This document shows positions 1,401-36,093 of a stretch of 45,521 nt of DNA, one piece after another. Each line of letters begins with the position of its first letter. Position 1 is the stretch's first letter. A program made the translations under genes and the position numbers. Origin of the DNA: a virus; the IMG/VR virus record IMGVR_UViG_3300046656_000327, positions 1 through 45,521 of that record; one strand, 5' to 3'. The notes beneath the pieces are model-generated. The model searched no databases and was not told the origin of the DNA. It saw nothing but the letters and a program-made list of their open reading frames with translations.

Positions 1401-1796
1401 TCAGTGTTTTGGTTGTTCAATACTGCCGTCGGTCGGACCCACGATGGACCCGTCAGTCGGACCGGGGAAGCGTAGCGTCTTGCACGCCGTATTGCTATTG
1501 GCAGATTCGGTTCCGTTGACCGAGGCTCGAACGAAGAAGCATTGCTCCCCCTTCGGGAAGCCAGCAAGGTTCGGCGTGTTAAGCGCCGTGGTCGTGTACA
1601 CCAGCGTTGCGCCCGGGGGAGTGAGTCGATACACACGATATGTGACAACTGTTCCGGGGGTGAACGGGGAATTGTCGGACCAGCCCGAGGAAGCCTGCCA
1701 CTGTACGCACGCACGATCGGGCGGTACGTTGGGCGGGCATGCACTCCATGCATGTGCTGGTAACAGTAGAAGTGCGAGCAGCCATTTAGTCTTCAT
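1401..1796 (-). CDS. Small exported protein with signal peptide (FN3-like)
   Basis: Starting at the ATG at 1796 gives 131 aa with a clear export signal: MKTKW, a run of leucines, then AHAWSAC. Cleavage near residue 18 by signal peptidase I (after AWS-A) is likely; the C at residue 20 could alternatively suggest a lipoprotein, but the -3 to -1 positions do not fit a lipobox well. The mature part has paired cysteines and a strand-rich core (VVTYRVYRL, CFFVRASVNG) resembling a single fibronectin type III domain. The C-terminus has two copies of GPTDGSI, at about residues 112-125. The start overlaps the end of the 2836-aa gene by 11 bp. Function is unknown; superinfection exclusion or a periplasmic role is only a guess. 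Confidence 0.65.
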   Translation of the reverse strand: MKTKWLLALLLLPAHAWSACPPNVPPDRACVQWQASSGWSDNSPFTPGTVVTYRVYRLTPPGATLVYTTTALNTPNLAGFPKGEQCFFVRASVNGTESANSNTACKTLRFPGPTDGSIVGPTDGSIEQPKH

Positions 1797-7700: not shown

Positions 7701-10296
7701 TCGCGAACTCCAGCGACTCGGGCGCGTCGATGTCACCCCAACGGCTCTTGCGCTCCTTGAGGCGCTGACGACGGGCCAACATTGCTAGGTTGCGCGCGGC
7801 TTCGTTCTCCGACTGCGCACCCTTCACGGCGCTCTGTGCCGCCTCGTCGTCACCCAGCGTTTCCTCGATGACGGCTTCCGCAGCACGACCGACACGTTTC
7901 GTTTCGCGTCCCTGTTCGAGCTGGCGGTTCTCCTGACGCACGAGCTTGTCGCGGCGACGGATCGCCTGCGTCGAGCTAACAATGTGCGCGGTCTGCCCGG
8001 TCTCCGTCTCCCATTGATCGGCGGTCTGGTCCGCTTCCTCCTCGCTGCCAACGAGCGATTCCCGAACGACGTTTCCTTTTTCGTCGCGAAGCTGCACGGC
8101 GATGTTTCCGCCCTCGGGCTTGCCTGAGCCCGCGCCGGTCGCGTAGCCGAGAACCTCCTGCATGTTCCCAGCACCCTGCCCCAGCAGGTTGATCAGCTCC
8201 TCGGCGGTGGCTCGGTTCTTGGCAATGAGGACTCCGCCCTTGCCATCGAAGTTCGCGAGCGGTACACCGATTCCACGCACCTGCTCCAAAGCACCGTTGG
8301 CGCGCAGGTTCTGCAGGTTCGCCTCTGATAGATACACGCCCTTGCGGGTGCTGTCCGGATCGCTCAGCTCGTCGAGCTGGGCCATGAGATCGCCCACGGG
8401 CTCCGCGCTCGGCTGGTCCGGGGTCTGCTGCTGGCCCTGATCGAACAACCCCTGCTGCTCGGTGTCGGCGAACGTGGCCGGGTCCTGCAACTGCTGCATC
8501 AGCGGGGCGCGCTGGCGCAGGAAGTCGGCTCGCGTGCTGCCGCCCGCCATCTGGTTCCGCTGCGCTTCGGCGGCAGACTGCTGCTGTGCCGTGGGAGCGC
8601 CGCCAAAGCCCGCTGGCGGGGTCATGTCGTCGACCTGAGGCTGAGCCGCCATCGGCTGCAGTGGGACGCGTCCCACGCCACGTAGGCGCTCCTGAAGCAG
8701 AGGCTGCTGCTGCGGCGGACCCGAGGGCACGACGGCGGTGCCGGGCGTGGGATTCATCCCGCCGCCCTGAAGGTCCATCGGCTCGTTGCGAGCCCACACC
8801 TGCGACATGTCGGAGCCCGCTGCCCCGGCCATCGGGTCCGGCTGCTCTTGGAACATGTCGTCCATCACGCCGTCTTTCCGCGCGTTCATCGCGGCAGCGA
8901 CATCGGGATCGACGTGCCCGGCTACGAGCGCGTCCGACATATTTGACCGACGCTGCAGGGAAGCTTGCGGGTTCTGCACGTAGCGCTCGCGCGCCTGAAG
9001 CTGGTCGAGCGTCGACATGTTCTGCGACGGCGCGTTCGGGTCCGTGAACACATCGTCGAAGCTCGCCGTGGGCTGTGGCTGCTGCCCGCCCTCGCCGAAA
9101 ATTTCTGTAAACGATGCTGGCAACTCGGGCTCGCCGCCCATCGTGGGTTCGCCCGATGGCAATTGCCCCTCTTCTGGTGGCAATTGACGCATCGCGTTCG
9201 CACGGGGACCGACGGCAGCGTTCGTCACACCACCTGTCAAACCACCAACGGCGACGCCTTCGACGCCTGCTTCGAGCGCGCCTTCGTGGAGTTGGCGGCT
9301 CTGATCGTAGGTCTGCGCCGCGTAGTTCTGCGCCACCTGCTCGGCGGTCGACTGCGTACCTTCCTGCACAGCCTCGGAGCTGAAGCCACGACCGAACCGG
9401 CTAGCTACTCCACCGCCGACATCGACGAGCTTGGGTTCGAGGTAGCGGCCCGCACCGGCAGAGATCAACCCGACCACGAAGCCGCCGATCGCGGGGGCCG
9501 CGCCCTGCGCTTCGCCGATCAGCTTCTCTCGCGCCTGCTCGGGGCCGTACTGTTCCACGAGCTGCTGGTAACGCTGCGACTTCATCAGCTCCTCTTCGGG
9601 AGCCTGCTCGATTTCCTCGGCGACATTGTTAGCGATCGAGCCGACGCTGAGCGCGCCTTCCGATGCGCCGAGGTACGTGAGAGCACCCGAACGCATGCCC
9701 GCGCGCAGCATGAGTGTGCCGGGTAGTAACGTGGCAAGAGAGGAAGGAGCGGAGCCCGTGGCCTTGAGCATCAGGGAGCTGATGAACTCCTTGGCTCCAC
9801 CGCGCCAGATGGTGCGATCGGGATCGAGCGTCGTCCACTGCCGCGCCGATCGGTCGAGCGCCTCAGGCGTCATCGTCGACTCGATCTGTCGAGCGTAATC
9901 ATTCAGCGCGCGACGGGGCGCGGCGAGCGTATCAGCAGCCTTCGTGAAGGTCTGCTCGTACGGGGTCTGTCCCTCACCTGCGCCCTGTCGCGCGAGGTAT
10001 TCTGGAATGCCTGCGACGGTGCCTGCAAGCTGAACCGCGCCAGCGCCGAACTTCTTCGCGTAGTCGCTCCATGCGACTTCGTCGTCACCTTCGGGCGGTG
10101 CTTCCGGTGCGGACTGATTCAGCTCTTGATAGGCCGACATGAACGGGTTGTCGTCGGCGAGCCCGCCCGGCTCCGATAGATTGAGACCCATGCGCAACGC
10201 CGTGCGCGGCTGGGCCGGGCTCGGCGTCGTGTTGATAGGATCGTAGGCCGGAGCTGCACCGAACAACTCTGCGTATGCGTCTTCGAAACTCGGCAT
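1786..10296 (-). CDS. Giant 2836-aa virion/ejection polyprotein, PLxRFG-type with HExxH domain
   Basis: The largest gene in the window is a single unbroken frame. The N-terminus contains several short look-alike motifs (FEDAYAELFG, FMSAYQELN, FTEIFGEG, FDDVFTDP) in a disordered Gln/Pro-rich region to about residue 650. Long charged helical stretches follow. Around residue 1693 there is HALAHEATHAATLG, a zinc-peptidase-type HExxH motif, with an acidic HEFIAEAF segment about 65 residues on as a possible third ligand. Near residue 2500 a PLGSFGPLVFQF segment, then a hydrophobic helix and a DDDEPFDFDRSIRE motif, match the C-terminal part of PLxRFG-domain phage proteins. By position after the 414- and 648-aa genes it would be the largest ejected internal virion protein (the role of T7 gp16), which is inference. 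No lysozyme-like domain was seen. Confidence 0.75.
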   Translation of the reverse strand: MPSFEDAYAELFGAAPAYDPINTTPSPAQPRTALRMGLNLSEPGGLADDNPFMSAYQELNQSAPEAPPEGDDEVAWSDYAKKFGAGAVQLAGTVAGIPEYLARQGAGEGQTPYEQTFTKAADTLAAPRRALNDYARQIESTMTPEALDRSARQWTTLDPDRTIWRGGAKEFISSLMLKATGSAPSSLATLLPGTLMLRAGMRSGALTYLGASEGALSVGSIANNVAEEIEQAPEEELMKSQRYQQLVEQYGPEQAREKLIGEAQGAAPAIGGFVVGLISAGAGRYLEPKLVDVGGGVASRFGRGFSSEAVQEGTQSTAEQVAQNYAAQTYDQSRQLHEGALEAGVEGVAVGGLTGGVTNAAVGPRANAMRQLPPEEGQLPSGEPTMGGEPELPASFTEIFGEGGQQPQPTASFDDVFTDPNAPSQNMSTLDQLQARERYVQNPQASLQRRSNMSDALVAGHVDPDVAAAMNARKDGVMDDMFQEQPDPMAGAAGSDMSQVWARNEPMDLQGGGMNPTPGTAVVPSGPPQQQPLLQERLRGVGRVPLQPMAAQPQVDDMTPPAGFGGAPTAQQQSAAEAQRNQMAGGSTRADFLRQRAPLMQQLQDPATFADTEQQGLFDQGQQQTPDQPSAEPVGDLMAQLDELSDPDSTRKGVYLSEANLQNLRANGALEQVRGIGVPLANFDGKGGVLIAKNRATAEELINLLGQGAGNMQEVLGYATGAGSGKPEGGNIAVQLRDEKGNVVRESLVGSEEEADQTADQWETETGQTAHIVSSTQAIRRRDKLVRQENRQLEQGRETKRVGRAAEAVIEETLGDDEAAQSAVKGAQSENEAARNLAMLARRQRLKERKSRWGDIDAPESLEFANPKQAQQYRELFMEHAGQQVIINTAATESEKLKARARQNELADQLKAMREIANPTTRSEQVARTATKMSPEETTKIGRAHIDPEERGGPQAGMTPRTAKAPTAKPISTEQPDVEDLTDEQIDVLDEPTLNLAFTAASRYITGRQRSQSTYEEVLARHPTPSEKRKLVKRVQNFLRARRNGPAAKDFKRANLTRTAENKQGSDRPVRKSVFDTRVLSVESAPKDQSKADKKTVAARAKTAFRGLEQSISAADSLITKSTKGDFSVLEAEREPDGSRSENSRKLLLGRAYLRVLAEYGNALQKANNRASNGAIAEVEKFNELIAKIKGYKPKEFAEQMSKLFFAEERESTRGAAKADPVHLKDLVFPNKRAEMTAKSTERLAERLRRIAQIEYRQTHKNGYYTNHVAPLMQKFLNSIATRGAMSYTPTLQEMRAVQFAMRLWRGNKDTRENYFNPVNRFFKELGVDLTTMKLDKDFQWETPDKLMLKRSRFGDVADKGGLEGFNERESTTRAQEVESFARGIRLEREALARDVPFTASEIERLARMKTYHEAVLSLHNKMKDSASTLDIIRAEEEFVQTLRDLGLASLNPKTQGIGMVSLTTPGFARDNTRTARTIASRLRQRDMTKSEAIEEMKEAYPLLTYSEAGREETSSIDRAERTIHREVQPRREVEREIRELLRREDMTPEQRKLLEALERRDVQNLNLVVDDLTQDTEQVEEAAKQIASMLEDPGSVVNARDVLQMASYGLPNDNRFRAVFERLAEVPGMRDVMVAFDRSGMVAGKNLAQYRVVKKMGTDFYVRTIVVNRPQLEQLRQQGRDPHMLLMHALAHEATHAATLGAIENNPALKTAATAIMHQTRRLMRNRGVNVDGIYAFRDNDVHEFIAEAFSNGAFQQQLRNTFIEPKLSVWQWIMGLVKKVMGLPDTPAHDNVLDAVMSLTDALFTGEDRIPTKGGRDVKNLDIKDEGVRGAVANVLDRYGKTSSSWKSLWQRAKDKATSGLLPAMSMEQMRDTYSRYFQSGSNNPMADYMRSFFKRNADNSANMERADKLSRKWTELAEQDREGALEMSRIMTEATMHQLHPQLALSEDENAHIKNDAAKAKHAELAKRWNKLPVPMQDLFEDAAEFYDSTMRREVALMTLNALRGYLTKGSDRALSDDDFDYTEGDVEGLRLNTIEGLEEEFGGLIDKTGLKNIHRISNIPQQRKGPYFPLMRWGDFVVYSERERERKTFGSDRAAARAYRDNLLANDPTLDIAVRQADNGDWMAVVSEKEFRAAESRSEAEANRYEMAAKYGESATSPVQLKADLFNSEATIKSNAGLKTILSKLDQNPAAQAAIKNFYLQMLADKSFRKHELSRKNRRGVDFETQHRTFASYAKQAAYYTSQLRYGWQMADALRDMQEVATKHRDENEISGVRMGEVVREINTRDKLTHNIQEVSKLVRGGVELSHFMLLTSPSYWMINATQPYMVTLPWLAARSSIGDAVSALTNAQKLILSPLVTQAVDSWAGLKALTSKTAAEKAFSVLEQVEDQIRKRGGDRAPEYLKMLTELKRESIIDLSFIAELRDVASGKQSVAQNVLDASRIMAHLTEVNNRIMTAIASYDIARSKGATAESSIDFAKQATSLTQFNYSSGNKPRLFQAQGPLGSFGPLVFQFMQYPQHMYALMISNMRAAMGDSPEGRKIARKTLAGIFATHLAAGGVIGAMLQPIKWAVGLAAFMFGDDDEPFDFDRSIREMTNELFGDTLGEVVSSGVPRLAGMDLSQRMSLGTLYMVDLKTDNANSFFGSLMQSFGGPATGLAASAFSGANYAMDGEYQKAFEAIEPKFLKDISKAIRFSNEGMTDATGKTFLDAKELSAQQLFLQYVGLNPSSVSDAYVRRNAVRDAKENDRGHKDRLLQKFRRAETPEARREVAIEVAEFNKKNPEMVITRSALLRSLTGAAESEQRMQKFGADLRGREVLYRDRDDFMEDDDDED

Positions 10297-17358: not shown

Positions 17359-19190
17359 TAGACGCTCGCCAGTTCCTTACCGGTCTCGGCGATCGAAGCC
17401 GAGAACACTTCGGTGTTGCTGACCATCTCGAACTGATACACATCACGCTTGAATCCGATCGGCAGTCGCACCATGCCTTCGTTCTGCACGATGGTATCGA
17501 ACACGATCTCACCATCGGCATACATCGTGAATCGAACCGCTGACTGCTGAAACGCCATGAAGTCGAGTGGATAGAGCCCGTCACCACCCAGCGGCTGGAA
17601 GTTCTCGGGTTCGGTCCAGCCCGGCACGAGCCCAGCTCCCTGCACGCCGCAGAGTGGATGTCCATTCAGCGTGTTGAGGTCGTCCACGAGGAACCGCGCT
17701 TCGTTGTACGGCTGATAGTAGTCCTCGATGTCAGCCGACACGTCCGCGTCCTCGTCGTTGAACTTGATCTTCAGCGCGCCGAAGTTCACCGGCTTCGGCA
17801 TATGGAAGACCTTCGACTTCCAACGCCAGTACAGCCGCTCGGAGTCTTCCGGGTCCCACTCCCACGCACGATCGTCATACAGCAGGAACACGCGACCGTC
17901 ATACCGATCCGTCTCGATTCCTTCGACGTGCTGGAAACGATCCAGCTCGACGAGCTTCGCAGCGGGCTCGGTCGGATTGAAGATGAACCCGAAGCTAGGC
18001 TGATTGAAGGCGATGTACTGCATGCCGTAGCTAGCCGCGTAGATGTCGCGCGGGTTGTATCGACGCAGCCATTCTTCCTTCGTGAGCAGGTCCTGCGTGA
18101 TGATCCGTGGCGACGGGCCATTCACAAGCACGAGCCCATTGATGGACGCGTAGTACACGCCTGCGTCGGATGACACCATGCTGCGCCGGGACAGGCATGG
18201 CATGACCGCGTCGGTCTTCTGCGTCGTGAACGCAGCAGGTGTCACGCCATTGCCGATATATGGGTTCGACTTCGTGCCGATGATCAGTGAGTTCGCCCAC
18301 ACGGAGAGCCCGACGATCTCGAACTCGGTGCCGATCTCGTATTCCGCTGGCCACGCGTGCGCGCGAAACGGCTCACTGAATACGAGGCGTCGCCCAACCC
18401 AGCCGACTAGATAGCCGTTCGGCATGACGACGAAGCCTTCGAGGTCCGCTGGCGGTGGGATGAAGCTCGTCGACTCCAGCACGTTGTTGAGCGCGATCAC
18501 GTCATCGGTCGCGGTGTCGCTGTAATTCGTATCGCCGATGTTCACCTTCGCCACGAAGAAGAACAGCGTGCTGGCATTGCCCGGGACGGTGCGGTAGATG
18601 TTCTTGTGGGTGATCAGACGCTGTGAAGCGTCCGGGACCACCGTCTGCATCCCCGAGATATTCCACGTGCCTGCCAGTCCCGACTGCACGGCGCTCGGCG
18701 GCGAAGGTGCGCCTTCCTCCCCGTACGCGCTCACAAACGTGTACAGGTACGTCCGCTGCGTGTCATCGCCCGCTCCGGGGGAAGTCACCACCGGAGTCGC
18801 TGTCGGAGTAGGTACGCCGAGTAGATAGGGCGGAAGACCGTCGATGATCCGGTTCAGCGTGTTGTACATCGGCGGACCGTCGCCCGCCCAATAGTAGCGA
18901 TCGTGCACGTCGTTCACGAGCGGCGAACGGACGATATCCACGTTGCGCGAATCGAACGCCAGCCAGACTTCCTGCTCCTCTTCGTACTCCATGTAGGGAA
19001 TACGATAGGTGCGCCGCACCGTGAAGTATTGGCCGGTCAGGTCCTTGACCTCACGCGGCACACGAAAGCCTCGCGCCTCACCCGAGAGCAGCTTCGTGTT
19101 GCGGGCGGTCGTCGCTGACATCGCTGGCAGGAGCCGGTCCGACACTCGCGGAATCAACCCCATGAAGCCTTCGAGCTTGAGCGCGGTCAT
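17358..19190 (-). CDS. Tail nozzle / tail-tubular-B-like structural protein
   Basis: I chose the ATG at 19190, which makes an ATGA overlap with the glycosyltransferase stop, over the longer frame; this gives 610 aa. The protein is strand-rich throughout. It includes LEGFMGLIPRVSDRLLP near the start, a YLYTFVSAYGEEGAPSPPS segment near residue 150, and repeated propeller-like stretches such as GYLVGWVGRRLVFSEPF. This pattern recurs in large podovirus tail proteins encoded near adaptor and fibre genes. By size and place it may form the tail nozzle (role of T7 gp12). I see no enzymatic motif. The structural role is fairly sure, the exact part inferred. Confidence 0.6.
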   Translation of the reverse strand: MTALKLEGFMGLIPRVSDRLLPAMSATTARNTKLLSGEARGFRVPREVKDLTGQYFTVRRTYRIPYMEYEEEQEVWLAFDSRNVDIVRSPLVNDVHDRYYWAGDGPPMYNTLNRIIDGLPPYLLGVPTPTATPVVTSPGAGDDTQRTYLYTFVSAYGEEGAPSPPSAVQSGLAGTWNISGMQTVVPDASQRLITHKNIYRTVPGNASTLFFFVAKVNIGDTNYSDTATDDVIALNNVLESTSFIPPPADLEGFVVMPNGYLVGWVGRRLVFSEPFRAHAWPAEYEIGTEFEIVGLSVWANSLIIGTKSNPYIGNGVTPAAFTTQKTDAVMPCLSRRSMVSSDAGVYYASINGLVLVNGPSPRIITQDLLTKEEWLRRYNPRDIYAASYGMQYIAFNQPSFGFIFNPTEPAAKLVELDRFQHVEGIETDRYDGRVFLLYDDRAWEWDPEDSERLYWRWKSKVFHMPKPVNFGALKIKFNDEDADVSADIEDYYQPYNEARFLVDDLNTLNGHPLCGVQGAGLVPGWTEPENFQPLGGDGLYPLDFMAFQQSAVRFTMYADGEIVFDTIVQNEGMVRLPIGFKRDVYQFEMVSNTEVFSASIAETGKELASV

Positions 19191-19891
19191 GTACGAACCT
19201 CGGGGTAGTGAGCCTTGATCCACGGGAAACGTACTTTCGCCGCGTCCATCCACGGTTTTTCGGGTCCGCCGAAACTAACAAGCCTCGTACCCTTCGGGAG
19301 CGGAGTGGGTCTGTAATCAGCCTTAGGGCAGAACATCCCATCTTTCTCGGTCCACGAAGCGATGTTGCGCGGTAGGATGCAATTCAGCCAGCCCTGATCC
19401 GACTGCTGCTTGCTCTTGGCGATCAGCTCGTAGGGTGACACAAACGGGTCGAAAGCGTCCCATACGAACTTGTGCGTCCCCGTACTGAGTAGATAGGCTC
19501 CACCAAGGATAATCCCATTGGTGTTACGCCAGACGACCAAGTCTTCCTCACGCTCCAGCAGTGGCGTGATGTCGCCGCAGAGAAGCGAATCGATGTCGAG
19601 CGAAAGGATGCGGTCTCCTAACACCTTCGCTTCGGCACTGAAGTTCCACAGACGCCGATAACAACGCGGATACCGCTTATCCGATGACGGGACCGGGCCA
19701 TCCCCCCGCACGGGCGCAGGAATCACCGTGATGCTCGGGTCGAGCCCGGCTGGCATGTCGGTCACGCAAACGATTCGGTATGGGACGTGGCAGTGCTTCG
19801 CTAGCATCGGGAGCTGAGCATTCACATGCTCGGCACGATAGCTGCGCTCACAGTGCTGGTCCGCATACAGCCAGTAGACGATGGAGATCAT
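19187..19891 (-). CDS. GT8-like glycosyltransferase inside the tail operon
   Basis: The 234-aa product begins MISIVYWLYADQHCERSY and contains AEHVNAQLPML, YRRLWNFSAEA, the DxD-type SLDIDSLLCGD (D99, D101) that would bind a metal and nucleotide sugar, and SDQGWLN. These elements occur in the same order and spacing as in the two glycosyltransferases at 31399-32109 and 32102-32797, so the three are paralogues. It is fused into the tail operon by ATGA overlaps on both sides, so it is co-translated with virion proteins. Its likely job is to transfer a sugar to a virion protein or host surface glycan; the acceptor is unknown. It has no membrane segment and would act in the cytoplasm. Confidence 0.75.
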   Translation of the reverse strand: MISIVYWLYADQHCERSYRAEHVNAQLPMLAKHCHVPYRIVCVTDMPAGLDPSITVIPAPVRGDGPVPSSDKRYPRCYRRLWNFSAEAKVLGDRILSLDIDSLLCGDITPLLEREEDLVVWRNTNGIILGGAYLLSTGTHKFVWDAFDPFVSPYELIAKSKQQSDQGWLNCILPRNIASWTEKDGMFCPKADYRPTPLPKGTRLVSFGGPEKPWMDAAKVRFPWIKAHYPEVRT

Positions 19892-21024
19892 TCAAAAACC
19901 TGAGCCACCGTGAGATCGCCGGTAGCCAGAATGTCTTCGACGCCGGTCGCACGAATCTCGATGCGCCAGACTCCGGTTCGCGGCGTATCGTCGAACACCC
20001 CGATATAACTCCAGCCGCGTTCCACGTCCATGATCAGCCACTCATCGATGTTGTCTCCAGACATCGGAGCGTCGCCAGAGAGCACGGTGAGTCGAATCTC
20101 GTAGTTGCCGGGCGCGAGTGTCTCCGTACTCCCCTGCCACCATTCGTTCTCAATGAACGTGCCGTAGTTACGGAACGACATCGGGTCTCCGCCCGGATCG
20201 AGCGAATCACTATCTACTTCGAAGAAGTACCCATTGCCACCGCCACCGACCCATAGCTGGCCGAGTGGAGCGAAGTCGCCGTTGCCGAACGAGATATTGA
20301 GCAGTGGCTCCTGTGAGCCCGAACCGTTCGCGCCACCCGAGTTGATCGTGTGATTCCCGAAGTTGAGGATCGCCGGGGTTGGCACGCCGCTCCCGATGGG
20401 GCCGATGGCGATGAGCAGGAACAGCCCGTCAGCAGGATTTCCTTCGTGGGTAGTTAGCTGGATGAACGTGGCAGTCTGTGACATTGCCTGAACAGAGGCG
20501 ATAAGTCCCGGCGTGCCAGTAGTCGCAACGACAATGGGAGTGTCAGAGAAATAGTTCTCGACGAACTCGATCATATAGAACCCGGGCGTGCCGCAGTCCC
20601 ATGAGATGTTGGCGATGCCAGCGTTCGGTGCACCGCCCAAGAAACCGGTTGCCTCAATCTGCCCGCGCGCAGTGATCTCGGTTGGGGTGTACCCACCGCC
20701 GCCGCCACTCTCTTCGAGATGCTCCATCGTCCCGGCAGTATTGCGATGAGCAACGATCACACCAGCCGCCCACGCGATAGCCGTCGTGTTCTCCTGCCCG
20801 CGCTCAACTGTCAGTACACCATCGGCGCGAGCCGTGCAGTTGCAGACTTCACGGACACCGGTAGTTGGGTCTTCGATCGTGACCTTGAAGATTTCGTCCA
20901 CAGCAGGTGAGGGGAAGTCTTCGAAGTGATCGGCAATCTGCAACGCCACGGTGTCCTCGGCAAGGTCACTCGCGAGCGTCGTGCGCGCGTCATTGGCGTA
21001 CAGATGTGTGCGGGAATCAGCCAT
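19888..21024 (-). CDS. Tail fibre/spike-like protein sharing N-terminal domain with next gene
   Basis: The 378-aa product has an N-terminal domain of about 95 residues (ANDARTTLASDLAEDTVALQ..., VDEIFKVTIEDPTTGVREV, LTVERGQENTTAIAW) that clearly matches the start of the collar-domain protein encoded at 21026-22123. A glycine stretch (SGGGGGYTP) links it to an unrelated, strand-rich C-terminal region with a second glycine-rich part (NSGGANGSGSQ, WVGGGGNGYFF). The shared N-terminus is best read as the virion attachment module, with the distal part binding receptor or glycan. The last 80 residues (TETLAPGNYEIRLTVLSG onward) look like a small beta-sandwich. It could be a second receptor-binding protein. 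Confidence 0.65.
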   Translation of the reverse strand: MADSRTHLYANDARTTLASDLAEDTVALQIADHFEDFPSPAVDEIFKVTIEDPTTGVREVCNCTARADGVLTVERGQENTTAIAWAAGVIVAHRNTAGTMEHLEESGGGGGYTPTEITARGQIEATGFLGGAPNAGIANISWDCGTPGFYMIEFVENYFSDTPIVVATTGTPGLIASVQAMSQTATFIQLTTHEGNPADGLFLLIAIGPIGSGVPTPAILNFGNHTINSGGANGSGSQEPLLNISFGNGDFAPLGQLWVGGGGNGYFFEVDSDSLDPGGDPMSFRNYGTFIENEWWQGSTETLAPGNYEIRLTVLSGDAPMSGDNIDEWLIMDVERGWSYIGVFDDTPRTGVWRIEIRATGVEDILATGDLTVAQVFE

Positions 21025-21025
21025 G

Positions 21026-22123
21026 TCACACCACCAGCGGAATCTTCATGACGTAGTAGAGCATCTTGTAAGGCGGGATCGTCGCCACCGCACCGAGCGT
21101 GTGGTTGTGATCCGTAACCGCCGAGATGGAGTGCGCGTGCGCCGCGCCGCCTACCTGACCAGTCTCCTCGATCAGATCATTACCACCGACGGTCTCCTGC
21201 CGATACGCATAGGTGTTGGAGTCAGCGTTGCCTGCCACACCGCGCGCAGGGCCGATGCCGCTGTTGCCGAAGTTCTCCATCTGGCCGGGGCCGTTTGAGC
21301 CCGCCTCCCACACGTACAGCCTGTGTGAGTGCAGCGGGATGTTAGTTTCATCCAGCGTGGTCTCGCCCGTCGAGCCACCGTGATCGTGCGCGCCAGCCGC
21401 TCCGATCGAGGGAGTTGCGCTCGCTGCGCCGCCGGTGCCGCCGATGTCACCGTTGACGGTGGCACCACGAACAAACAACCCGCGAAGGTCGGGAGTGCCG
21501 TTGCTGCCGTTGCAGATCGCCCATCCCGCAGGAAGGTCACCCGAGACGCCATACCACATCGTGATCATGCCATTCGGGATCGCGAGCGCCGCGACGTTAT
21601 CACCGGTCACGAGGATCGTCGCTCCACCAGCGGTGGCACGCGTGCCGTCGTTGGGGACCAGAACCTCGTTAGACGCGTCATCGACCGTGCCACGCATGGC
21701 GACGCCGACAAGCTGACCACCGGTCATCGTCGAGTCTTGGATGTCCGCGTTCTGTAGCTCGTTGCCATCCATGTCGAGATCGCCGGACATGGAGTCGCCA
21801 CCGCGACGGATGAATTCCTCCATGATGACCCGGGTCAGGCGTGCATCCACGCGCGTGAGCCCACCGGTCCACGACTGCGCGCTGGTGCCGTCCTGCCCGC
21901 GTCCGCCTGTCGGCACCGTGAGTAGATCGGTCGAGCGCTCCGTGATCTTCACGATCTCGCGGTCGCCATTCGAGTTCACGAGCGTGACGTAGAAATACTC
22001 ATCCACGCCGGGGTTTGGATAGAGCGTGCCGTATCCGTTCGCGACCTGAATGGTCAGATCGGTGTCGGAGATGCTGGCAGCCAGCAACGCCGTAGCGTTG
22101 TTAGCGAACAGTAGATTGGGCAT
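21026..22123 (-). CDS. Tail fibre protein with phage tail-collar domain
   Basis: The start overlaps the previous stop as TAATG. The first 90 residues are the shared attachment domain. A RGGDSMSGDLDMDGNEL element near 108-122 is a common fibre motif. At about 183-222 comes the signature of the phage tail collar domain: IPNGMITMWYG, LPAGWAICNGSNGTPDLRGLFVRG. The His-rich end (HDHGG, HAHSISAVTDHNH, then PPYKMLYYVMKI) is typical for collar proteins whose trimers bind metal ions along the shaft. It is a receptor-binding or fibre-tip component of the virion. Confidence 0.85.
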   Translation of the reverse strand: MPNLLFANNATALLAASISDTDLTIQVANGYGTLYPNPGVDEYFYVTLVNSNGDREIVKITERSTDLLTVPTGGRGQDGTSAQSWTGGLTRVDARLTRVIMEEFIRRGGDSMSGDLDMDGNELQNADIQDSTMTGGQLVGVAMRGTVDDASNEVLVPNDGTRATAGGATILVTGDNVAALAIPNGMITMWYGVSGDLPAGWAICNGSNGTPDLRGLFVRGATVNGDIGGTGGAASATPSIGAAGAHDHGGSTGETTLDETNIPLHSHRLYVWEAGSNGPGQMENFGNSGIGPARGVAGNADSNTYAYRQETVGGNDLIEETGQVGGAAHAHSISAVTDHNHTLGAVATIPPYKMLYYVMKIPLVV

Positions 22124-29483: not shown

Positions 29484-30002
29484 ATGGCTGCCAAGCTCGC
29501 TTCGACGAAGACTCAGCAGCAGGTCACAGCTCCGGGCACTGATGTGTCGCTCGATCTGTCCTCGCTGAGCGCACATATTGCTGCTGAACTAGCTGCGGGA
29601 CTCTCCGACGCAGCCGCTATTCGTGAGCGCTACGACGTGTCCCCCGAGCAGTGGGACGTGCTGCGTCAGAACCCTGTCTTCCGTGAGATGGTGAAGGACG
29701 CCATCACCAAGCTGCGCGGCGATCTCAACGCTGGCAAGCGCATCACGCTCAAGAGCGAGATCGCACTCGAAGACACGATCGGTACGCTGTACCTCATGGC
29801 AAACGACTCAGCGATCCCCGCTGCAGCTCGCGTCGAAGCCGTGAAGACGCTCGCCTCACTGGCCGGTCGCAACATGAAGGGCGACGGCGGTGGCGGCGCT
29901 GGCGGCGGTGGGCCGGGCTTCGCGATCAACATCCAAATCAACACCGGCACCGAAGAGAAGGTCGTGTCGGTCGAGAACCGCCAGCTCATCGAAGCTGCAT
30001 GA
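29484..30002 (+). CDS. Putative terminase small subunit
   Basis: The 172-aa product sits directly before the large subunit with an ATGA overlap, the usual arrangement. An N-terminal disordered part is followed by a helix-turn-helix-like stretch (AAELAAGLSDAAAIRERYDVSPEQWDVL), which would recognise the packaging site. A helical oligomerisation region follows (MVKDAITKLRGDLNAG...ALEDTIGTLYLMAND), then a glycine loop (GGGGAGGGGPG) and a final strand. Role: to choose and hand phage DNA to the motor. The identity is inferred from position and layout. Its upstream region carries a palindrome. Confidence 0.75.
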   Translation: MAAKLASTKTQQQVTAPGTDVSLDLSSLSAHIAAELAAGLSDAAAIRERYDVSPEQWDVLRQNPVFREMVKDAITKLRGDLNAGKRITLKSEIALEDTIGTLYLMANDSAIPAAARVEAVKTLASLAGRNMKGDGGGGAGGGGPGFAINIQINTGTEEKVVSVENRQLIEAA

Positions 30003-31402
30003 ACGCGGTAGTCAATTTCAAGACTCCGCCGACGATCGGGCGCTTCATGCTCGACAAGTCGTTCATCCGTTTCATCATCGGTCCCGTCGGCTCAGGCAAG
30101 TCCGTCGGTTGCATCATGGAGCTGCTACGTCGAGCGCGCGAGCAAGCCCCCGATGGTCAGGGTGTTAGGCGCACACGCTTCGCGATCATTCGCAACACGC
30201 TCCAGCAAATCAAACAAACCTGCCTCGCCGACATCGAGATGTGGATCAAGCCCATCGCGCACTACAAGGTGACCGATCAGGCGATCCACGTGCGGTTGGT
30301 TTTGAGCGATGGCACGAAGGTCGAGTCCGAGTGGCTACTGATGCCACTGGACACGCCCGAAGACCAGAAGCGACTTCTTTCGCTGAACCTGACCGGCGCG
30401 TGGATTTCTGAATTCCGCGAAGTGCATCTCAAGATCGTGGACGGCGTCGTTGGTCGTCTCGGCCGCTTCCCTGCCAAGGCCATCGCGCCGCTCACATGGC
30501 ACGGGCTCATCGGGGAGTCCAACCCGCCCGACGAGGACTCCGAGTGGTACGGAAAGCTTGAGGTCGAGACGCCCCCGAACTGGAAGGTCTTCAAGCAGCC
30601 GGGTGGCATGGAGCCCACTGCTGAGAATCGCGAAAATCTGCCGGACGACTACTACGAAAATCTCGTGGCTAACAACTCCGAGGATTGGGTGGATGTCCAC
30701 GTCAACGCGAACTACGGTAAATCGCTCAGCGGTCAAGCCGTCTTCCGCGCGACCTTCCGTCCTGAATTTCACGTCACGTACCAGACACTCCGCGCCATCC
30801 CCGGCATCTCGCTGATGATCGGGCAGGATTTTGGTCGCACTCCAGCAGCCCTCATTGGTCAGGTCGATCCACGGGGTCGGCTGCTCATCCTGAGGGAAGC
30901 CACTTCGATCGACATGGGTATCGAGAAATTTTGTGTCCAAGAGCTACGCCCCATGTTGCTCAGCTACTTCACCGGATTCCTCGCCTACATGGTCTGCGAT
31001 CCGTCGGGCCGATACAAAGCACAGGTCGGCGAGGAGAGCCCGTTTGATGTTCTCAAACGCCTGAGCTTCAAAAGCTACCCCGCACCTAGCAATGATATTG
31101 AACCTCGCCTTCGCGCGGTCGAGCAAAGCCTTCTTCGTCAAATCGATGGAGGACCCATGGTTCTCATCGATGGTGGAAATTGCCCCCAGCTCGTTCAAGC
31201 GATGAAGTTCAACTATCGGTACAAACGAAAGAAAGATGGCGCGCTCGACGAGTCACCTGACAAGAGCCACCCGTGGTCCGATCTCGCGGACTGCCTGCAG
31301 TACATGTGCCTGTCGGTGAATGGTGGATACATCGGGAAGTTGTTAGCTCGTGAAAAACCGGTGGTGCGTGGCCCGCGCGTGTCGGTTGCGAGCTGGACCT
31401 AG
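29999..31402 (+). CDS. terL: Terminase large subunit
   Basis: The 467-aa protein contains a Walker A motif GPVGSGKS at 28-35 and a Walker-B-like AWISEFRE, with E138 as the likely catalytic glutamate. The nuclease half has IGQDFGRTP (D277), MVCDPSG (D334) and a final SHPWSDLADCLQY segment, giving the three acidic residues of an RNase H-like nuclease. It is the motor that pumps DNA into the prohead and cuts concatemers. It starts inside the end of the small subunit gene. Its stop and that of the glycosyltransferase on the other strand share the same CTAG bases, so the two genes converge with a four-base overlap. Confidence 0.93.
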   Translation: MNAVVNFKTPPTIGRFMLDKSFIRFIIGPVGSGKSVGCIMELLRRAREQAPDGQGVRRTRFAIIRNTLQQIKQTCLADIEMWIKPIAHYKVTDQAIHVRLVLSDGTKVESEWLLMPLDTPEDQKRLLSLNLTGAWISEFREVHLKIVDGVVGRLGRFPAKAIAPLTWHGLIGESNPPDEDSEWYGKLEVETPPNWKVFKQPGGMEPTAENRENLPDDYYENLVANNSEDWVDVHVNANYGKSLSGQAVFRATFRPEFHVTYQTLRAIPGISLMIGQDFGRTPAALIGQVDPRGRLLILREATSIDMGIEKFCVQELRPMLLSYFTGFLAYMVCDPSGRYKAQVGEESPFDVLKRLSFKSYPAPSNDIEPRLRAVEQSLLRQIDGGPMVLIDGGNCPQLVQAMKFNYRYKRKKDGALDESPDKSHPWSDLADCLQYMCLSVNGGYIGKLLAREKPVVRGPRVSVASWT

Positions 31403-32109
31403 CGATAGTGATCTGCAATCCATGGGCAGGCGCGCATCGCGACCGGCGTCCACGGATCGATTAACCCCTGAAAGAACACCATCCTCGCATTCTGCGGGAG
31501 CTGGTATTTGTTGCGCTTGAGGTCCAGCCGGTACGAGTAGACGCCATCTTTCCGCGTCCACGTCCGCTCACTCGGTCCCAAGCAGTAGCTCATCCACGCC
31601 TGATCACTTCCTAGCAACCCGGCCTTGAAAGTCTTCCTCGGTGACTCCGCAGGATCGAATTTCTCCCATACCTGCCTGCGCGCACCCGCGTCCATCATCC
31701 ACATCGAGCCGTTGTACGGTGTCGTCTTGATCTGATCACCCCAAATGACGAAGTCTTCCGTGCGATTCCACAGCGGGCTCAGGTCTCCAGTGATGACCAC
31801 ATCGAGATCGAGCGACACGAAGCGCGGACCCACAAGATCGCGCATGTCCATCGAGAATGCTTTCAGCCGCCGATAGCAGCTCGGGTTCATGGCACCGTGG
31901 GGATTCACGATCTTCGAGTGGTCATCCCACAGCGGAATGATCTTCACGCGCGGGTCGATGCCCTTCGGATCATCGGTGATACAGAAGAACTGGTGCTGGT
32001 GGTTGTAGTGCCGCGCAACCATGGATCGCAGCGTGTTCACGTGCTTGGCTGAGAAGTTAGACCGGTATCCTTCGACCGGCTGCCATTTCCAGCACACCAC
32101 GCTAAACAT
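31399..32109 (-). CDS. GT8-like glycosyltransferase (paralogue 2)
   Basis: The ATG at 32109 gives 236 aa. Motifs in order: FSVVCWKW, AKHVNTLRSM, CITDDPKGIDP, YRRLKAFS, LDLDVV (D101 and D103), GSDQAWM, KDGVYSY and MVFFQGLIDPW. The order and spacing equal those of the enzyme encoded next at 32102-32797 and, less closely, of that at 19187-19891. The DxD pair would hold a nucleotide sugar. It is the last gene of the leftward glycan cluster, converging on terminase. Acceptor is unknown; host-surface glycan or virion glycosylation is inferred. Confidence 0.78.
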   Translation of the reverse strand: MFSVVCWKWQPVEGYRSNFSAKHVNTLRSMVARHYNHQHQFFCITDDPKGIDPRVKIIPLWDDHSKIVNPHGAMNPSCYRRLKAFSMDMRDLVGPRFVSLDLDVVITGDLSPLWNRTEDFVIWGDQIKTTPYNGSMWMMDAGARRQVWEKFDPAESPRKTFKAGLLGSDQAWMSYCLGPSERTWTRKDGVYSYRLDLKRNKYQLPQNARMVFFQGLIDPWTPVAMRACPWIADHYR

Positions 32110-32797
32110 AGTATCGCTTGACCCACTGCAGGTGCATGCAATGCCACGGCTTTTTCTCGCCATTGAAGAACACCACGCAGGCATTCTCGGGGAGCGCGGG
32201 ATTGTCTAACAAGTGACATCGATAGCTGTAGATGCCGTCCTTCTGCTCGAAGAATTGATCCTGCGGCTTCAGGTTGTGCGCAATCCACGCTTGATCCGAG
32301 CCGACGAACCCCGTGGAGAATTTATATCCGTGCACGGGGTGCACCATCTCCGCATTGAAGAACGTCCACGTGTAAGGACGCGTGCCGCACTCATGGAGTA
32401 CCAGCGATCCGTTGCAGGGCATGCGCTCGTGATCCGGTCTCCAGATTTTGAATTCCGCTTCGTCGCGCAGCAGATGGTCGACGTTCTTCACGATGATGCA
32501 GTCGAGATCGAACCAGATGAACTTCCCCAGCGTCGGCTTCATCTCCGAGGAGAATGCCTTCAGCCTAACAAAGCAGTTCGGCTTGTGGATGCCGCCGTAG
32601 TGCGGTGCCGGGTTCTCCCATAGCTTCATCGTCTCGATATCGGGGTCGATCCCCTTCGGGTCATCCGTGATACAGAGCGCGATGAACGGCAGCGTCGTAT
32701 GCCGCCGCAGCATTCGATAGAACGTGTTCACGTGCTCAGCCGTGTAGGTGTCTCGGTATCCCGGCCGATGCCACTTCCACGTGACGACTCGGATCAC
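32102..32797 (-). CDS. GT8-like glycosyltransferase (paralogue 1)
   Basis: The 231-aa product starts MIRVVTWKWHRPGYRDTY and contains AEHVNTFYRML, CITDDPKGIDPD, RLKAFSSEM, WFDLDCII (D97 and D99), GSDQAWIAHN, KDGIYSYR and VVFFNGEKKPWH. The shared blocks with the downstream gene (ITDDPKGIDP and RLKAFS exact) mark a recent duplication. It overlaps the following gene by eight bases and the preceding GT2 gene by ATGA, so all are made from one message. No membrane span is present; it would work in the cytoplasm on a soluble or membrane-attached acceptor. Confidence 0.78.
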   Translation of the reverse strand: MIRVVTWKWHRPGYRDTYTAEHVNTFYRMLRRHTTLPFIALCITDDPKGIDPDIETMKLWENPAPHYGGIHKPNCFVRLKAFSSEMKPTLGKFIWFDLDCIIVKNVDHLLRDEAEFKIWRPDHERMPCNGSLVLHECGTRPYTWTFFNAEMVHPVHGYKFSTGFVGSDQAWIAHNLKPQDQFFEQKDGIYSYRCHLLDNPALPENACVVFFNGEKKPWHCMHLQWVKRYYV

Positions 32798-33561
32798 AGC
32801 GGGATACGCTCGAATGGCGTGCGGATCGGCCGGATCGAGCGCATGTCACCGGAGACGCGCTTCTTGTCGAATGCCTCGCGGTACTTCTTCTGCCACTCAT
32901 CGCGATCGAGGTCGCGCGTGTCCGCGTCGTGTAGATAGGGCTCGCCTTTTCGTTCACGCCGTCCGTAACCGACCAGCACCACATCCTGCATGTGCGTCTT
33001 CTGCGCGAGGACGGAAAGCTGGCGCACGAACTCCCCATCGCCGCCGTACCCGCCACCGCCCACGGGCGTGAGGTCGAGGTCGTACCCGTTGATCTGCCAG
33101 TACGCAGAGTGGCGCACGAGGAAGGTGTTAGGGTGAATCTTCCGATCCTTGAAGTCCGGCGCGAATGTGCGCTCCATGGTGTAGAACTTCTCGGGCTCCA
33201 GCTCCTTCGACAGCATCGTGTACGCCATCTCGGGCGTGAGAATGATGTCGATGTCGCTCATGAACATCCATCCATCTTCCTTCTGCCCATCCTTGTCTTC
33301 GCCGTACGCGACCTTCGCGCCGATGTTGCGGCACTGGTGCATGTTCCATGGAATCCGCTTGGTGACCTTCCAGAGCTGCTTCGACACCTTGCAGTCCTTC
33401 AGCACGTCGTACGCCGGGTAGGTGGAGCTGCAGTCATCCACAATGATGATCCGCACGGCCTTGCGCAGCTCGCCTGCGTAGCGGTTCCAGTTTTCGACCT
33501 GCTTCTGCAGCATGGTCTTGTTCTCGTAATACGGGTAGATAAAGCGGCAGGGCGTGATCAC
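32794..33561 (-). CDS. Glycosyltransferase family 2 (GT-A fold)
   Basis: The 255-aa product shows the GT2 pattern: VRIIIVDDCSS (42-46, nucleotide-sugar base binding), a conserved NIGAK at about 79-83, MSDIDIIL with D103-x-D105 as the metal-binding DxD, and a later GGYGGDGEFVRQL acidic element as the probable catalytic base region. Enzymes of this group add sugars one at a time from UDP- or GDP-sugars with inversion. It is coupled to both neighbours by four-base overlaps. The acceptor cannot be read from sequence. Confidence 0.82.
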   Translation of the reverse strand: MITPCRFIYPYYENKTMLQKQVENWNRYAGELRKAVRIIIVDDCSSTYPAYDVLKDCKVSKQLWKVTKRIPWNMHQCRNIGAKVAYGEDKDGQKEDGWMFMSDIDIILTPEMAYTMLSKELEPEKFYTMERTFAPDFKDRKIHPNTFLVRHSAYWQINGYDLDLTPVGGGGYGGDGEFVRQLSVLAQKTHMQDVVLVGYGRRERKGEPYLHDADTRDLDRDEWQKKYREAFDKKRVSGDMRSIRPIRTPFERIPL

Positions 33562-34172
33562 TTCGTTAACTCCAGAAAATATCCATAGCTGACGGCTCGA
33601 ATTCCAGCCGCCTTTGAGTAGTTAGAAACCATACAGAGTTCGATTCTCTGCTCCTCAAACTGTTCGGCCACGATGCCGTAGTTCGGAGCCCACGCCTTGT
33701 ATTTGCCGGTCGTCGTGTTGCCGGTGGCTTTCGCCTGCGGCCAGTCGTACGGCGGATGCCAGTAGGGTTCGCCGTTCGGCCCCTTCTGGCTGTCGAGCCC
33801 GAACACGAATACCTGATGTGGGCGCAGTTGATAGGCGAGGTTCAGCGCCACCATGCCGCTGTTCATGCCGTTGAGTCGACCTTCGTCAGGCGACAGCAGC
33901 GCCGACTCATGGTCGCATTTGTATTTGCGCAGGCGCGGGTGCTGCGGCAGATTCTTCGCTGCGCCCTCGCGCACCCACAAGTCCCCAGCACGTGTGGTAA
34001 AGAATTGCCTGAAGCGGTTCTCCGCCCACAACCGATCCATCGTGACGCCAGTGTGGCATTCCACGAGGACGGACGATTCATTCACTCCGATGACGTGCCC
34101 GCGCGAGCGCAGGTCCTTCACGTCGTACTGAGTTACTGACCATCCTCCACAGATGACGATGACTGTTCGCAT
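33558..34172 (-). CDS. DUF115-like Rossmann-fold glycan-cluster protein
   Basis: The ATG at 34172 begins MRTVIVICGGWSVTQYDVKDL, a P-loop-like strand-turn-helix start, and gives 204 aa. It continues with GHVIGVNESS, a VTMDRLW element, LNGMNSGMVALNLAYQL and VFVFGLDSQKG. The combination (I-G-V-N, a D in 'xMDR', N-S-G-x-x-A-x-x-L-A, then F-G-x-D) resembles the DUF115 or 6-hydroxymethylpterin-kinase-like proteins found in sugar gene clusters of phages and bacteria, some of which transfer or activate sugars. It overlaps the methyltransferase gene by 40 bp. The function is uncertain. Confidence 0.55.
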   Translation of the reverse strand: MRTVIVICGGWSVTQYDVKDLRSRGHVIGVNESSVLVECHTGVTMDRLWAENRFRQFFTTRAGDLWVREGAAKNLPQHPRLRKYKCDHESALLSPDEGRLNGMNSGMVALNLAYQLRPHQVFVFGLDSQKGPNGEPYWHPPYDWPQAKATGNTTTGKYKAWAPNYGIVAEQFEEQRIELCMVSNYSKAAGIRAVSYGYFLELTK

Positions 34173-34762
34173 CCGAATGCCAGCCTCACGTATTTCTTTT
34201 CGCTTTTGAGAACGACCGGCTTGCCGAGTGCGCCTGCCAGCTCTAACAACCATTGCGGACGCTCGCGTCGCACATCGAAGATGCAGATCGTATCCTTCGA
34301 TCGCCGCGCTCGCAGCACCACGTCCAAATAATCCGCTGGCGGGATATGAAAGCAGTAGCCCGCGTAGCTCGTGATCAGGTCGTACTTGCGATCCTTCTCG
34401 GGCTCGGGGAACACGCAGTCGACTTCACGGCTGCCGTTCGCCGCGTGGAAGCTCTTCGCAACCTTGGCGTTGCTGAACGGCTTGTGGTGCCATTGCACGT
34501 CGGCCGGGCAGTTGAGCCCATCTAACAACGTGACCTTCAGCCTGCCGTAGTGCTGCAGCAGGACGATATTGATCCCGCCGAGGCCGGACGCAATGTCCAG
34601 CACGCTCTCACAAACCGGTGGGAGGACCGGGTGGATCGAGCTGAAGATGTCCATCAGCGATTTCTCGTATGCCTGCTTCCACACCTTCGGGTCGTGGCGC
34701 TGGTCGCTGACCTCGCCACGTTGGATAACGAGATATCGAAAGTGTTCGGGTTCAATGACCAT
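34133..34762 (-). CDS. SAM-dependent methyltransferase (class I)
   Basis: Starting at the ATG at 34762 gives 209 aa. The glycine motif VLDIASGLGGINIVLL (about 54-69), followed by VTLLDG (acidic residue at the end of strand 2), is the SAM-binding part of a Rossmann methyltransferase. YDLITSYAGYCFHIP with a following FDVRRERP is the typical motif IV/V region. Such enzymes in glycan clusters often methylate a sugar or its carrier. It overlaps the FkbM gene by 11 bp and the DUF115-like gene by 40 bp. The substrate is unknown. Confidence 0.7.
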   Translation of the reverse strand: MVIEPEHFRYLVIQRGEVSDQRHDPKVWKQAYEKSLMDIFSSIHPVLPPVCESVLDIASGLGGINIVLLQHYGRLKVTLLDGLNCPADVQWHHKPFSNAKVAKSFHAANGSREVDCVFPEPEKDRKYDLITSYAGYCFHIPPADYLDVVLRARRSKDTICIFDVRRERPQWLLELAGALGKPVVLKSEKKYVRLAFGCEQSSSSVEDGQ

Positions 34763-35357
34763 GGGCGTAAATCCAATCTCCGTGCACTCGGGTCTGCAGC
34801 TTATACCCAAGCTTCTTCATGAAGCTCAAGTATTCCGGCGTGGTGTCCTCTTTCTGTTCGAGCGCGATGACCGGGTGGTACTCCTTGATCGTGCCGAACG
34901 CGCCTTCCAGTGCTGGTAATTCGTATCGCTCGATATCTAGGTAGATAGCGTCGCAGCGAGTCAGCTTGAGTGAGTCGATCGTGATCTGATCGACGTGCAT
35001 TCCGCCGCCCTCGCGTACGGTCGTGCAGCCACCGTTCTTCGGCGCGATCTCCACGGAGCCCATCTCGGGTCCCAGCACGCATCGACGCGCAAACGCGCCG
35101 GGGGCATTCTTCTTCAGGCACTCGAAGTGTGCAGCACGTGGCTCAAACGTATGCACGACCTCGAAGAATTTCAGGAGCCGCCGTGGCCACATGCCGATGA
35201 ATCCGCCCGCCTGCACGCAGACGCCCTTGGTGCGCGTGAGCCCAGCGACCACGTCGCAATCGGTGACGCGGTTCAGCATGTAGTGGAAGAGTTTGTCGGT
35301 TTGCTCGTTGTTAGGCCACCAGAGTCCAAATTCTTCTCGGAACGTGATTTCATCCAC
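34752..35357 (-). CDS. FkbM-family methyltransferase
   Basis: I take the GTG at 35357 as start because AGGAG lies eight bases before it; this gives 201 aa. It has a degenerate FkbM-type core: VCVQAGGFIGMWPRRLLKFF (SAM-binding loop), VHTFEPRAAHFECLKKN (the F-E-P motif), then a central YLDIERYELPALEGA (E-G region) and HPVIALEQ. FkbM enzymes methylate hydroxyls of polyketides or sugars. The first 85 bp overlap the end of the GT-D gene, an unusually long overlap. It is probably involved in modifying the same glycan as the neighbouring transferases. Confidence 0.75.
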   Translation of the reverse strand: MDEITFREEFGLWWPNNEQTDKLFHYMLNRVTDCDVVAGLTRTKGVCVQAGGFIGMWPRRLLKFFEVVHTFEPRAAHFECLKKNAPGAFARRCVLGPEMGSVEIAPKNGGCTTVREGGGMHVDQITIDSLKLTRCDAIYLDIERYELPALEGAFGTIKEYHPVIALEQKEDTTPEYLSFMKKLGYKLQTRVHGDWIYAHGH

Positions 35358-36022
35358 TTGGGTTTCTCCTCGCCATTGAACCAGAACATGCCGACGTGCC
35401 CGAGATCGATTGCGTGCTTCCCGGCAAGGGAGAGCCGCCACGCGAGACAGGTTGCTGTCGGACCGCAGCAGAGAATGACGCGCTTCACGTTGATCGAGAG
35501 GATGTCCTCCATGAGCTTGTCGATCTCGGCGTACGCATCGCGCCGTGCACACTTCACGTGATAGACAGTCCGAGCACCGTGCGCATATAGGAACTCACTT
35601 GTTAGGGAGCGATCCGAGCCCGACACGAGGATCACGGGCTCCTCGCGCCACAGTGATTCAATCTTTTCGTAGAATGCCGCCGTGTAAATCCACGGAGCGC
35701 TGTCGGGCCGGGTGATGAACGCCGAGTAGTACTCGACGCCTCGGGACAAAAAGCGCGGGTACTTCTGTTCGTACTTGCGCCAATTCTCGATCTTCGGTGA
35801 TCTGACATCGAGTCGGGGAATTCCTACGATGCATCGCGAATTATCCCTAACAAGAATGTCGCGTAGCTCGGCGGTGAGGTTCTTGTCGGGAATCTGCGAA
35901 ACGCAGCCGTTCCCTGCAGCAATCTTGAATTCGCCGTCCCCGTAGCGAGCAATTGATGCACCGCCCAACACACGAGCTAGTGTGTCTTCTTCCGAACGAA
36001 CCTTCGGATACTCCAGCTTCAT
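35273..36022 (-). CDS. GT-D fold glycosyltransferase (DUF1792-like)
   Basis: The 249-aa protein shows the GT-D signature near the N-terminus, SIARYGDGEF (23-32, with D29 and E31 as the D-x-E metal site), and near residue 190 LCCGPTATCLAWRLSLAGKHAIDLGH. GT-D enzymes transfer glucose to glycans on proteins or surface polymers. The last 25 or so residues (after EEKPKW) are read in a frame also used by the start of the FkbM gene and may be a non-conserved tail. It is the first gene of the glycan cluster; the upstream AGGGAAG is a good ribosome-binding site. Confidence 0.8.
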   Translation of the reverse strand: MKLEYPKVRSEEDTLARVLGGASIARYGDGEFKIAAGNGCVSQIPDKNLTAELRDILVRDNSRCIVGIPRLDVRSPKIENWRKYEQKYPRFLSRGVEYYSAFITRPDSAPWIYTAAFYEKIESLWREEPVILVSGSDRSLTSEFLYAHGARTVYHVKCARRDAYAEIDKLMEDILSINVKRVILCCGPTATCLAWRLSLAGKHAIDLGHVGMFWFNGEEKPKWMKSRSEKNLDSGGLTTSKPTNSSTTC

Positions 36023-36067: not shown

Positions 36068-36093
36068 AGCCCCGGCCACAACCGGGGCTTTTT
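36068..36093 (+). terminator. Rightward rho-independent terminator (antisense to flanking genes)
   Basis: An 8-bp perfect stem AGCCCCGG / CCGGGGCT has a 6-nt loop and is followed on the plus strand by TTTTT. On the minus strand the A-run lies before the hairpin, so it would not work leftward. All genes for 4.6 kb to the left and 4.4 kb to the right are leftward. Its likely role is to stop rightward transcription that runs from the terminase promoter through the glycan cluster. Confidence 0.8.

Follow-up and report, generated by a model that had tools for sequence, protein, structure and literature searches.

A seven-gene glycan cluster convergent with the terminase gene of a podovirus-like phage and its predicted role in virion glycosylation

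Seven glycan genes beside the terminase gene

The virus record IMGVR_UViG_3300046656_000327, a 45.5-kb linear record of a podovirus-like phage analysed here over its full 45,521 nucleotides (the window), carries a cluster of seven genes encoding glycan-modifying enzymes next to the gene for the terminase large subunit, TerL. The cluster consists of seven intact minus-strand open reading frames (ORFs), mostly overlapping, that run from 36022 down to 31399. A codon-usage gene caller independently tiled the same seven genes with gaps of -8, -4, -4, +11, -11 and -85 bp, in agreement with the original prediction of a seven-gene, leftward, overlapping unit. The likelier translation starts lie downstream of the mechanical ORF starts in the last GT8-like gene (probably 32109), the DUF115-like gene (34172), the second methyltransferase gene (34762) and the FkbM gene (about 35357-35381). 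The cluster had also been described as head to tail with the terminase. However, the last GT8-like gene ends at 31399 on the minus strand and terL (29999..31402, plus strand; PHROG 2, E 2e-18) ends at 31402, so that the two are convergent and overlap tail-to-tail by 4 bp. A scan for sigma-70-like promoters found none on the cluster strand upstream of the cluster.

The first gene (35273..36022, minus) encodes a GT-D fold glycosyltransferase that matches PF08759 with an E value of 1.4e-28 and 100.6 bits, against a curated cut-off of 27. Its profile matches dGT1/GalT1 of the Fap1 adhesin pathway (PDB 4phr/4pfx, 7e-43), and the DxE-type pair D29/E31 is invariant among 30 homologues. The FkbM-type O-methyltransferase that follows (34752..35381, minus, with an uncertain start between 35357 and 35381) was identified by PF05050 (4.8e-7; 30.5 bits, cut-off 22.7) and PHROG 8156 (1e-18), and its profile matches PDB 2py6 (6e-9). 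The second, S-adenosylmethionine-dependent methyltransferase (34133..34762, minus) is weak by sequence (PF13649, 0.024); its profile matches a phosphoethanolamine methyltransferase (0.003), and motif I, D56-G60-G63, is invariant in 29 homologues.

The fourth gene (33558..34172, minus) encodes a DUF115-like transferase that matches PHROG 4603, annotated as alpha-2,3-sialyltransferase (1e-12). PF01973 is matched by 27 of 58 homologues, with the window protein itself falling below it. The AlphaFold model of this protein is of high confidence (predicted local distance difference test, pLDDT, 95.9). Foldseek returned weak Rossmann-type matches only, which were resolved by VIA-align to Maf and CstII. 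The closest solved structure is Maf (PDB 5mu5; Z 14.9, root-mean-square deviation 2.9, 175 of 204 residues), followed by the CstII/CstI sialyltransferases at Z 11.9. Judged by the model, the DUF115-like protein shares the catalytic fold of the Maf/DUF115/CstII superfamily.

The remaining genes encode glycosyltransferases. The GT2-like protein (32794..33561, minus) scores just under the PF00535 cut-off (8e-5); its profile matches GmaR, heparosan and chondroitin synthases and other family-2 glycosyltransferases, and D42, D43, D103 and D105, the DD and DxD motifs, are invariant in 40 homologues. The last two genes, b (32102..32797, minus) and a (31399..32109, minus), both match PHROG 1962 (5e-11 and 6e-12, respectively). 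They are called GT8-like rather than GT8 because their scores against PF01501, 11.8 and 15.3 bits, are below the curated cut-off of 24.3. The AlphaFold model of protein a (pLDDT 95.2) has a GT-A fold of the LgtC/glycogenin type, with Z scores of 18.2 to LgtC and 17.3 to glycogenin over about 215 residues, and D101/D103 are invariant. A third GT8-like gene lies outside the reported cluster. This paralogue (19187..19891, minus; PHROG 1962, 3e-10) was missed by the original prediction, which correctly reported the two GT8-like genes in the cluster. It is situated between tail-fibre and internal-virion genes with a 4-bp overlap on each side and has kept its catalytic motifs. The DxD pair and the SDQxW block, invariant in 64 homologues, are present in all three GT8-like proteins of the window, b included.

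The enzyme families originally assigned thus hold, some of them only through profiles, and the structure models gave no sign of degenerate active sites, the catalytic motifs being kept. No membrane segment was predicted in the window's enzymes, where the maximum 19-residue hydropathy was 0.8-1.5. Selection was evaluated on close homologue pairs from other contigs, as the window lacks a close relative for such a comparison. The median ratio of nonsynonymous to synonymous substitution rates (dN/dS) was 0.12-0.24 in all seven families tested, and these pairs are under purifying selection. A defence island was also considered and dropped, as none of the seven cluster proteins was assigned to a defence family by PADLOC.

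Distribution, genomic placement and transcription

When the window's right half was searched by megablast against 50,697 phage records, no match was obtained. A scan of IMG/VR with the single terminase protein likewise gave none, and profile scans were therefore required. Scans of IMG/VR with the GT-D and GT8 profiles, supplemented by the window and a small number of phage records, yielded 123 sources; these were deduplicated by identical proteins only, and the counts include related contigs. A run of at least four cluster genes was present in 80 of the 123, the window included. The recurring order is GT-D, methyltransferase(s), DUF115-like, GT2 and GT8, with local gain and loss. The cluster is not a chance assembly, because its gene order and composition are shared by dozens of contigs and dN/dS is low. 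The folds, the motifs and the conserved order also support the predicted capacity to assemble a short oligosaccharide from host donors and to methylate it.

The gene set occurs in two settings. The cluster is codirectional with the virion genes in about 50 siphovirus-type contigs, where head-tail connector genes lie directly downstream. Among the downstream neighbours, 26 of 86 proteins are assigned by PHROG to head closure and 18 to the head-tail adaptor; among the upstream ones, about 20 of 86 are assigned to the major head protein and 19 to the portal. The distance from the last glycan gene to the next same-strand gene is 30 bp or less in 45 of 52 cases, with an overlap of exactly 4 bp in 20, a spacing that suggests translational coupling of the cluster to the head-tail genes. 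Tetraselmis phage S20 has the head-operon layout as well, with an annotated head closure gene beside GT8. Furthermore, the genome of Bradyrhizobium sp. JYMT SZCCT0428 contains a prophage-like copy of the gene set (L178), plus genes resembling those of the phage contigs. The gene module is regarded as both old and mobile.

The second setting is next to the terminase. A convergent arrangement of the cluster with this type of terminase is found in the window and in nine other contigs; in eight more the cluster lies upstream and codirectional, a form in which GT8 often abuts or overlaps terL. The bias of a search for glycan genes was avoided with a set of 53 IMG/VR contigs picked solely by terminase type, with flanks on both sides; a glycan gene was found within 2.5 kb of the terminase in 41 of the 53. 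In some genomes of one phage lineage (L204, L206, L233 and similar contigs, compared with the window) terL is inverted relative to the portal gene, and the glycan cluster remains attached, at the opposite end of terL. The terminases of Rhizobium phage RHph_TM3_14A and of BcepC6B share 46% and 34% identity, respectively, with that of the window. In RHph_TM3_14A (L007, 12735-14849) the glycan cluster is replaced at the equivalent terminase-side site by a 704-residue BNR-repeat protein, a sign that the site may house variable cargo.

An intrinsic terminator was located immediately past the 5' end of the cluster, on the strand that carries the terminase gene (36068..36089, plus), where an 8-bp GC stem is followed by TTTTATTG. 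By a strict test, there are two strong intrinsic terminators in the whole window, both on the plus strand. Twelve convergent multi-gene clusters have their 5' end within the contig, and all 12 show exactly one terminase-strand terminator within the 5-8 kb past terL, lying either at the cluster 5' end or no more than about 700 bp from it. The background is 0.029 such terminators per kb per strand, and some of the 12 clusters are closely related. The equivalents are in L202, L215, L220, L231, L236, L239, L244, L246, L250, L260 and L263. Their sequences differ, none lies inside the cluster proper, and the gap between terL and GT8 is devoid of a terminator even where it measures 120-240 bp. No such terminator was seen in contigs with a lone GT-D gene. 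Most codirectional contigs that include the cluster 5' end have an opposite-strand terminator within about 1.1 kb upstream of the cluster. The single conserved terminator predicts that a terminase-side transcript would run antisense through the glycan operon, with an overlap of 2-6 kb, and stop before the small-gene region. Such a transcript may regulate the operon, or the terminator may merely insulate the next region.

The minus strand of the window also encodes head, portal, tail-fibre and internal-virion genes. A 2836-residue protein (1786-10296) has C-terminal similarity to DarB-like antirestriction proteins and to other giant phage proteins of unassigned function.

Acceptor and composition of the glycan

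The interpretation considered most probable, at roughly 0.6, is that the cluster is a soluble phage cassette that O-glycosylates the phage's own virion proteins in the host cytoplasm with a short methylated glycan. It is a reading of genes and models, drawn from the gene content, the intact motifs, the folds of two members and the synteny with virion genes. One transferase would attach the first sugar to a virion protein at Ser/Thr, and the GT-D, GT2-like and two GT8-like enzymes would lengthen the glycan, in an order that is conjectural. The Maf/CstII-fold enzyme may contribute a nonulosonic-acid-like sugar, as the initial residue or as a cap, and FkbM and the second methyltransferase would O-methylate the product. 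The glycan would be added to tail fibres and/or head proteins during assembly. The third GT8-like enzyme, translated with the tail-fibre genes, may be a dedicated, acceptor-specific enzyme; in a larger relative (G001) the single GT8-like match is the cluster copy. The benefits to the phage could include changed adsorption, shielding and stability.

Virion proteins are favoured because of the coupling to head genes, the linkage to the terminase, the GT8 paralogue in the tail-fibre region and the soluble enzymes of protein-glycosylation type, including the Maf fold. The enzymes are assigned to that type on the basis of the Maf fold, the GT-D match to the Fap1 pathway and the presence of GmaR among the GT2 matches. 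Several observations weigh on the other side. The slot between head genes is also a common one for 'moron' genes, and in the window the cluster shares its strand with the upstream small genes, not with the terminase. The structural matches of the GT8-like protein include the lipooligosaccharide enzyme LgtC beside protein-modifying ones. The match to Maf is itself no proof of a protein acceptor, as CstII, which has the same fold, modifies lipooligosaccharide. Moreover, no acceptor protein was identifiable in the window.

Candidate acceptors can nevertheless be named. In the window these are the products of the two tail-fibre genes that adjoin the third GT8-like gene (19888..22123, minus; PHROG tail-fibre families). 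In about a dozen contigs, a siphovirus subset, collagen-like Gly-X-Y proteins are encoded directly or nearly directly upstream of the cluster (L042, L044, L057, L103, L138, L139, L152, L154, L156, L161, L162 and L171). Some bacterial collagen-like proteins are glycosylated, and those of the siphovirus contigs are possible acceptors; the window has no collagen-like Gly-X-Y protein, so the idea stays a lead. A conserved protein of 110-150 residues is encoded between the major capsid gene and the cluster in L041, L049, L050, L058, L063, L065, L078 and similar contigs. It has a small N-terminal domain and a low-complexity tail rich in Pro, Ser and Lys, and is possibly a head decoration protein or an acceptor.

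The window phage would draw its sugar donors from the host. The original prediction that no sugar-nucleotide gene is present holds for the window proteins scanned, but not for the relatives. One relative (L006) has a UDP-glucose-dehydrogenase-like gene, and epimerase/dehydratase genes account for 4 of 72 accessory proteins in the relatives. The best NCBIfam match of a cytidylyltransferase in another relative (L027) is PseF, below the model cut-off. This PseF-like gene, together with the Maf fold, points to a nonulosonic-acid-like sugar. A broader and decidedly tentative proposal is that a horizontally shared cassette, widespread in proteobacterial Caudoviricetes, places a methylated nonulosonic-acid glycan on the virion by means of a minimal Maf-type enzyme and, in genomes where it is linked to the terminase, is tuned by antisense transcription from the terminase strand through the entire operon.

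The possibility was considered that the cluster instead alters the surface glycan of the infected host, that is the lipopolysaccharide (LPS) core, O-antigen or exopolysaccharide, and so blocks superinfection. This is the main alternative and is considered unlikely. LgtC is the best match of the GT8-like model (Z 18.2), the DUF115-like model has a match to the CstII-type fold, and CstII-type enzymes also act on lipooligosaccharide. O-antigen conversion by phages is well known, the gene set has a prophage-like copy in Bradyrhizobium, and an LPS-type glycosyltransferase has been reported in a sinorhizobial prophage (PMC5537653). However, the GtrA flippase (PF04138) was absent from five records, which are possibly fragments, where the control was matched in seven genomes. 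No membrane-embedded serotype-specific transferase was seen among the window's enzymes, by the hydropathy values given above, and no integrase-like match was found among the window ORFs scanned. The coupling to head-tail genes also fits late virion assembly better.

A host receptor protein such as flagellin or pilin could be the substrate, its glycosylation and methylation blocking re-adsorption. Maf, the best fold match, is a flagellin O-glycosyltransferase, GmaR also acts on flagellin, and FkbM genes are found in flagellar glycan loci. Nevertheless, only the catalytic-like part of Maf, about 200 residues, is present, and the linkage to the head operon is left unexplained, which makes this substrate improbable. 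Hypermodified bases of phage DNA are the least likely of the targets originally listed, with a very small probability. DNA-glycosylating phages exist and the window record may be incomplete, but the thymidylate-synthase-family hydroxymethylase (PF00303) was absent from the window and four relatives, possibly fragments, where the control was matched in nine. A search for Tet/JBP-like hydroxylases gave no match, with the positive control silent too. Known sets of DNA glucosyltransferases do not, to our knowledge, resemble a combination of four transferase families, two methyltransferases and a Maf fold. The comparison thus favours virion proteins among those targets and disfavours conversion of the gtr type.

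Relation to known glycosylation systems

Phage enzymes glycosylate the virions of mycobacteriophages Che8, Corndog and Myrna (Freeman et al. 2023, via PMC11256854, PMC11600133 and PMC12363180); the acceptors are capsid and tail-tube proteins, and the glycan shields the particle from antibodies. Those phages have tandem glycosyltransferases, adjoined in cluster O by an O-methyltransferase (PMC11600133, PMC12363180), and the window cluster has the same hallmark of several phage glycosyltransferases with an adjacent sugar methyltransferase. The window GT2 profile aligns remotely with Che8 gp109 (hhalign E 9e-7) but showed no relation to gp110 (E 0.23; the GT2 family alone was compared), which is one of two glycosyltransferases said there to be essential. 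In contrast to the window cluster, the GT-D, Maf-type and GT8 families do not figure in the available descriptions of the mycobacteriophage systems, and the hosts of window-type phages appear to be proteobacterial.

The Fap1 pathway of Streptococcus parasanguinis, in which the GT-D domain of dGT1 adds glucose to the adhesin glycan (PMC5207161), resembles the cluster in its sequential cytoplasmic glycosyltransferases acting on a protein and in its GT-D member (E 7e-43). It differs in that no Gtf1/2 initiator, accessory secretion system or serine-rich repeat adhesin was seen in the window, where methyltransferases are added. Maf flagellin glycosylation (PDB 5mu5; PMC11339370) has the catalytic fold in common (Z 14.9), and one relative's cluster has the PseF-like cytidylyltransferase, but the phage protein has 204 residues and is without the other Maf domains. 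Tetraselmis viridis virus S20 (NC_020840) has GT-D, DUF115-like, methyltransferase, GT2, FkbM and GT8 homologues in a related order; it is a siphovirus, with the cluster inside the head operon. The gtrABC seroconversion loci of temperate phages are likewise phage-borne glycosyltransferase genes, but their flippase and membrane glycosyltransferases were not found in the window phage.

A literature search, which reached few subscription papers, found no description of the gene set. Virion glycosylation is known; the gene set, the hosts and the genomic placement are apparently a distinct and undescribed variant of it, provided that the acceptor is confirmed. In the literature surveyed, glycosylated virions are documented for a few mycobacteriophages only. 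The recurrence of a conserved, apparently unrelated gene set among the head genes of many environmental phages, and beside the terminase in most members of one podovirus-like lineage, suggests that virion glycosylation is far commoner. Specific enzymes, relatives and candidate acceptors can now be named, and the cluster may yield compact protein glycosyltransferases, including a Maf-type enzyme of about 200 residues.

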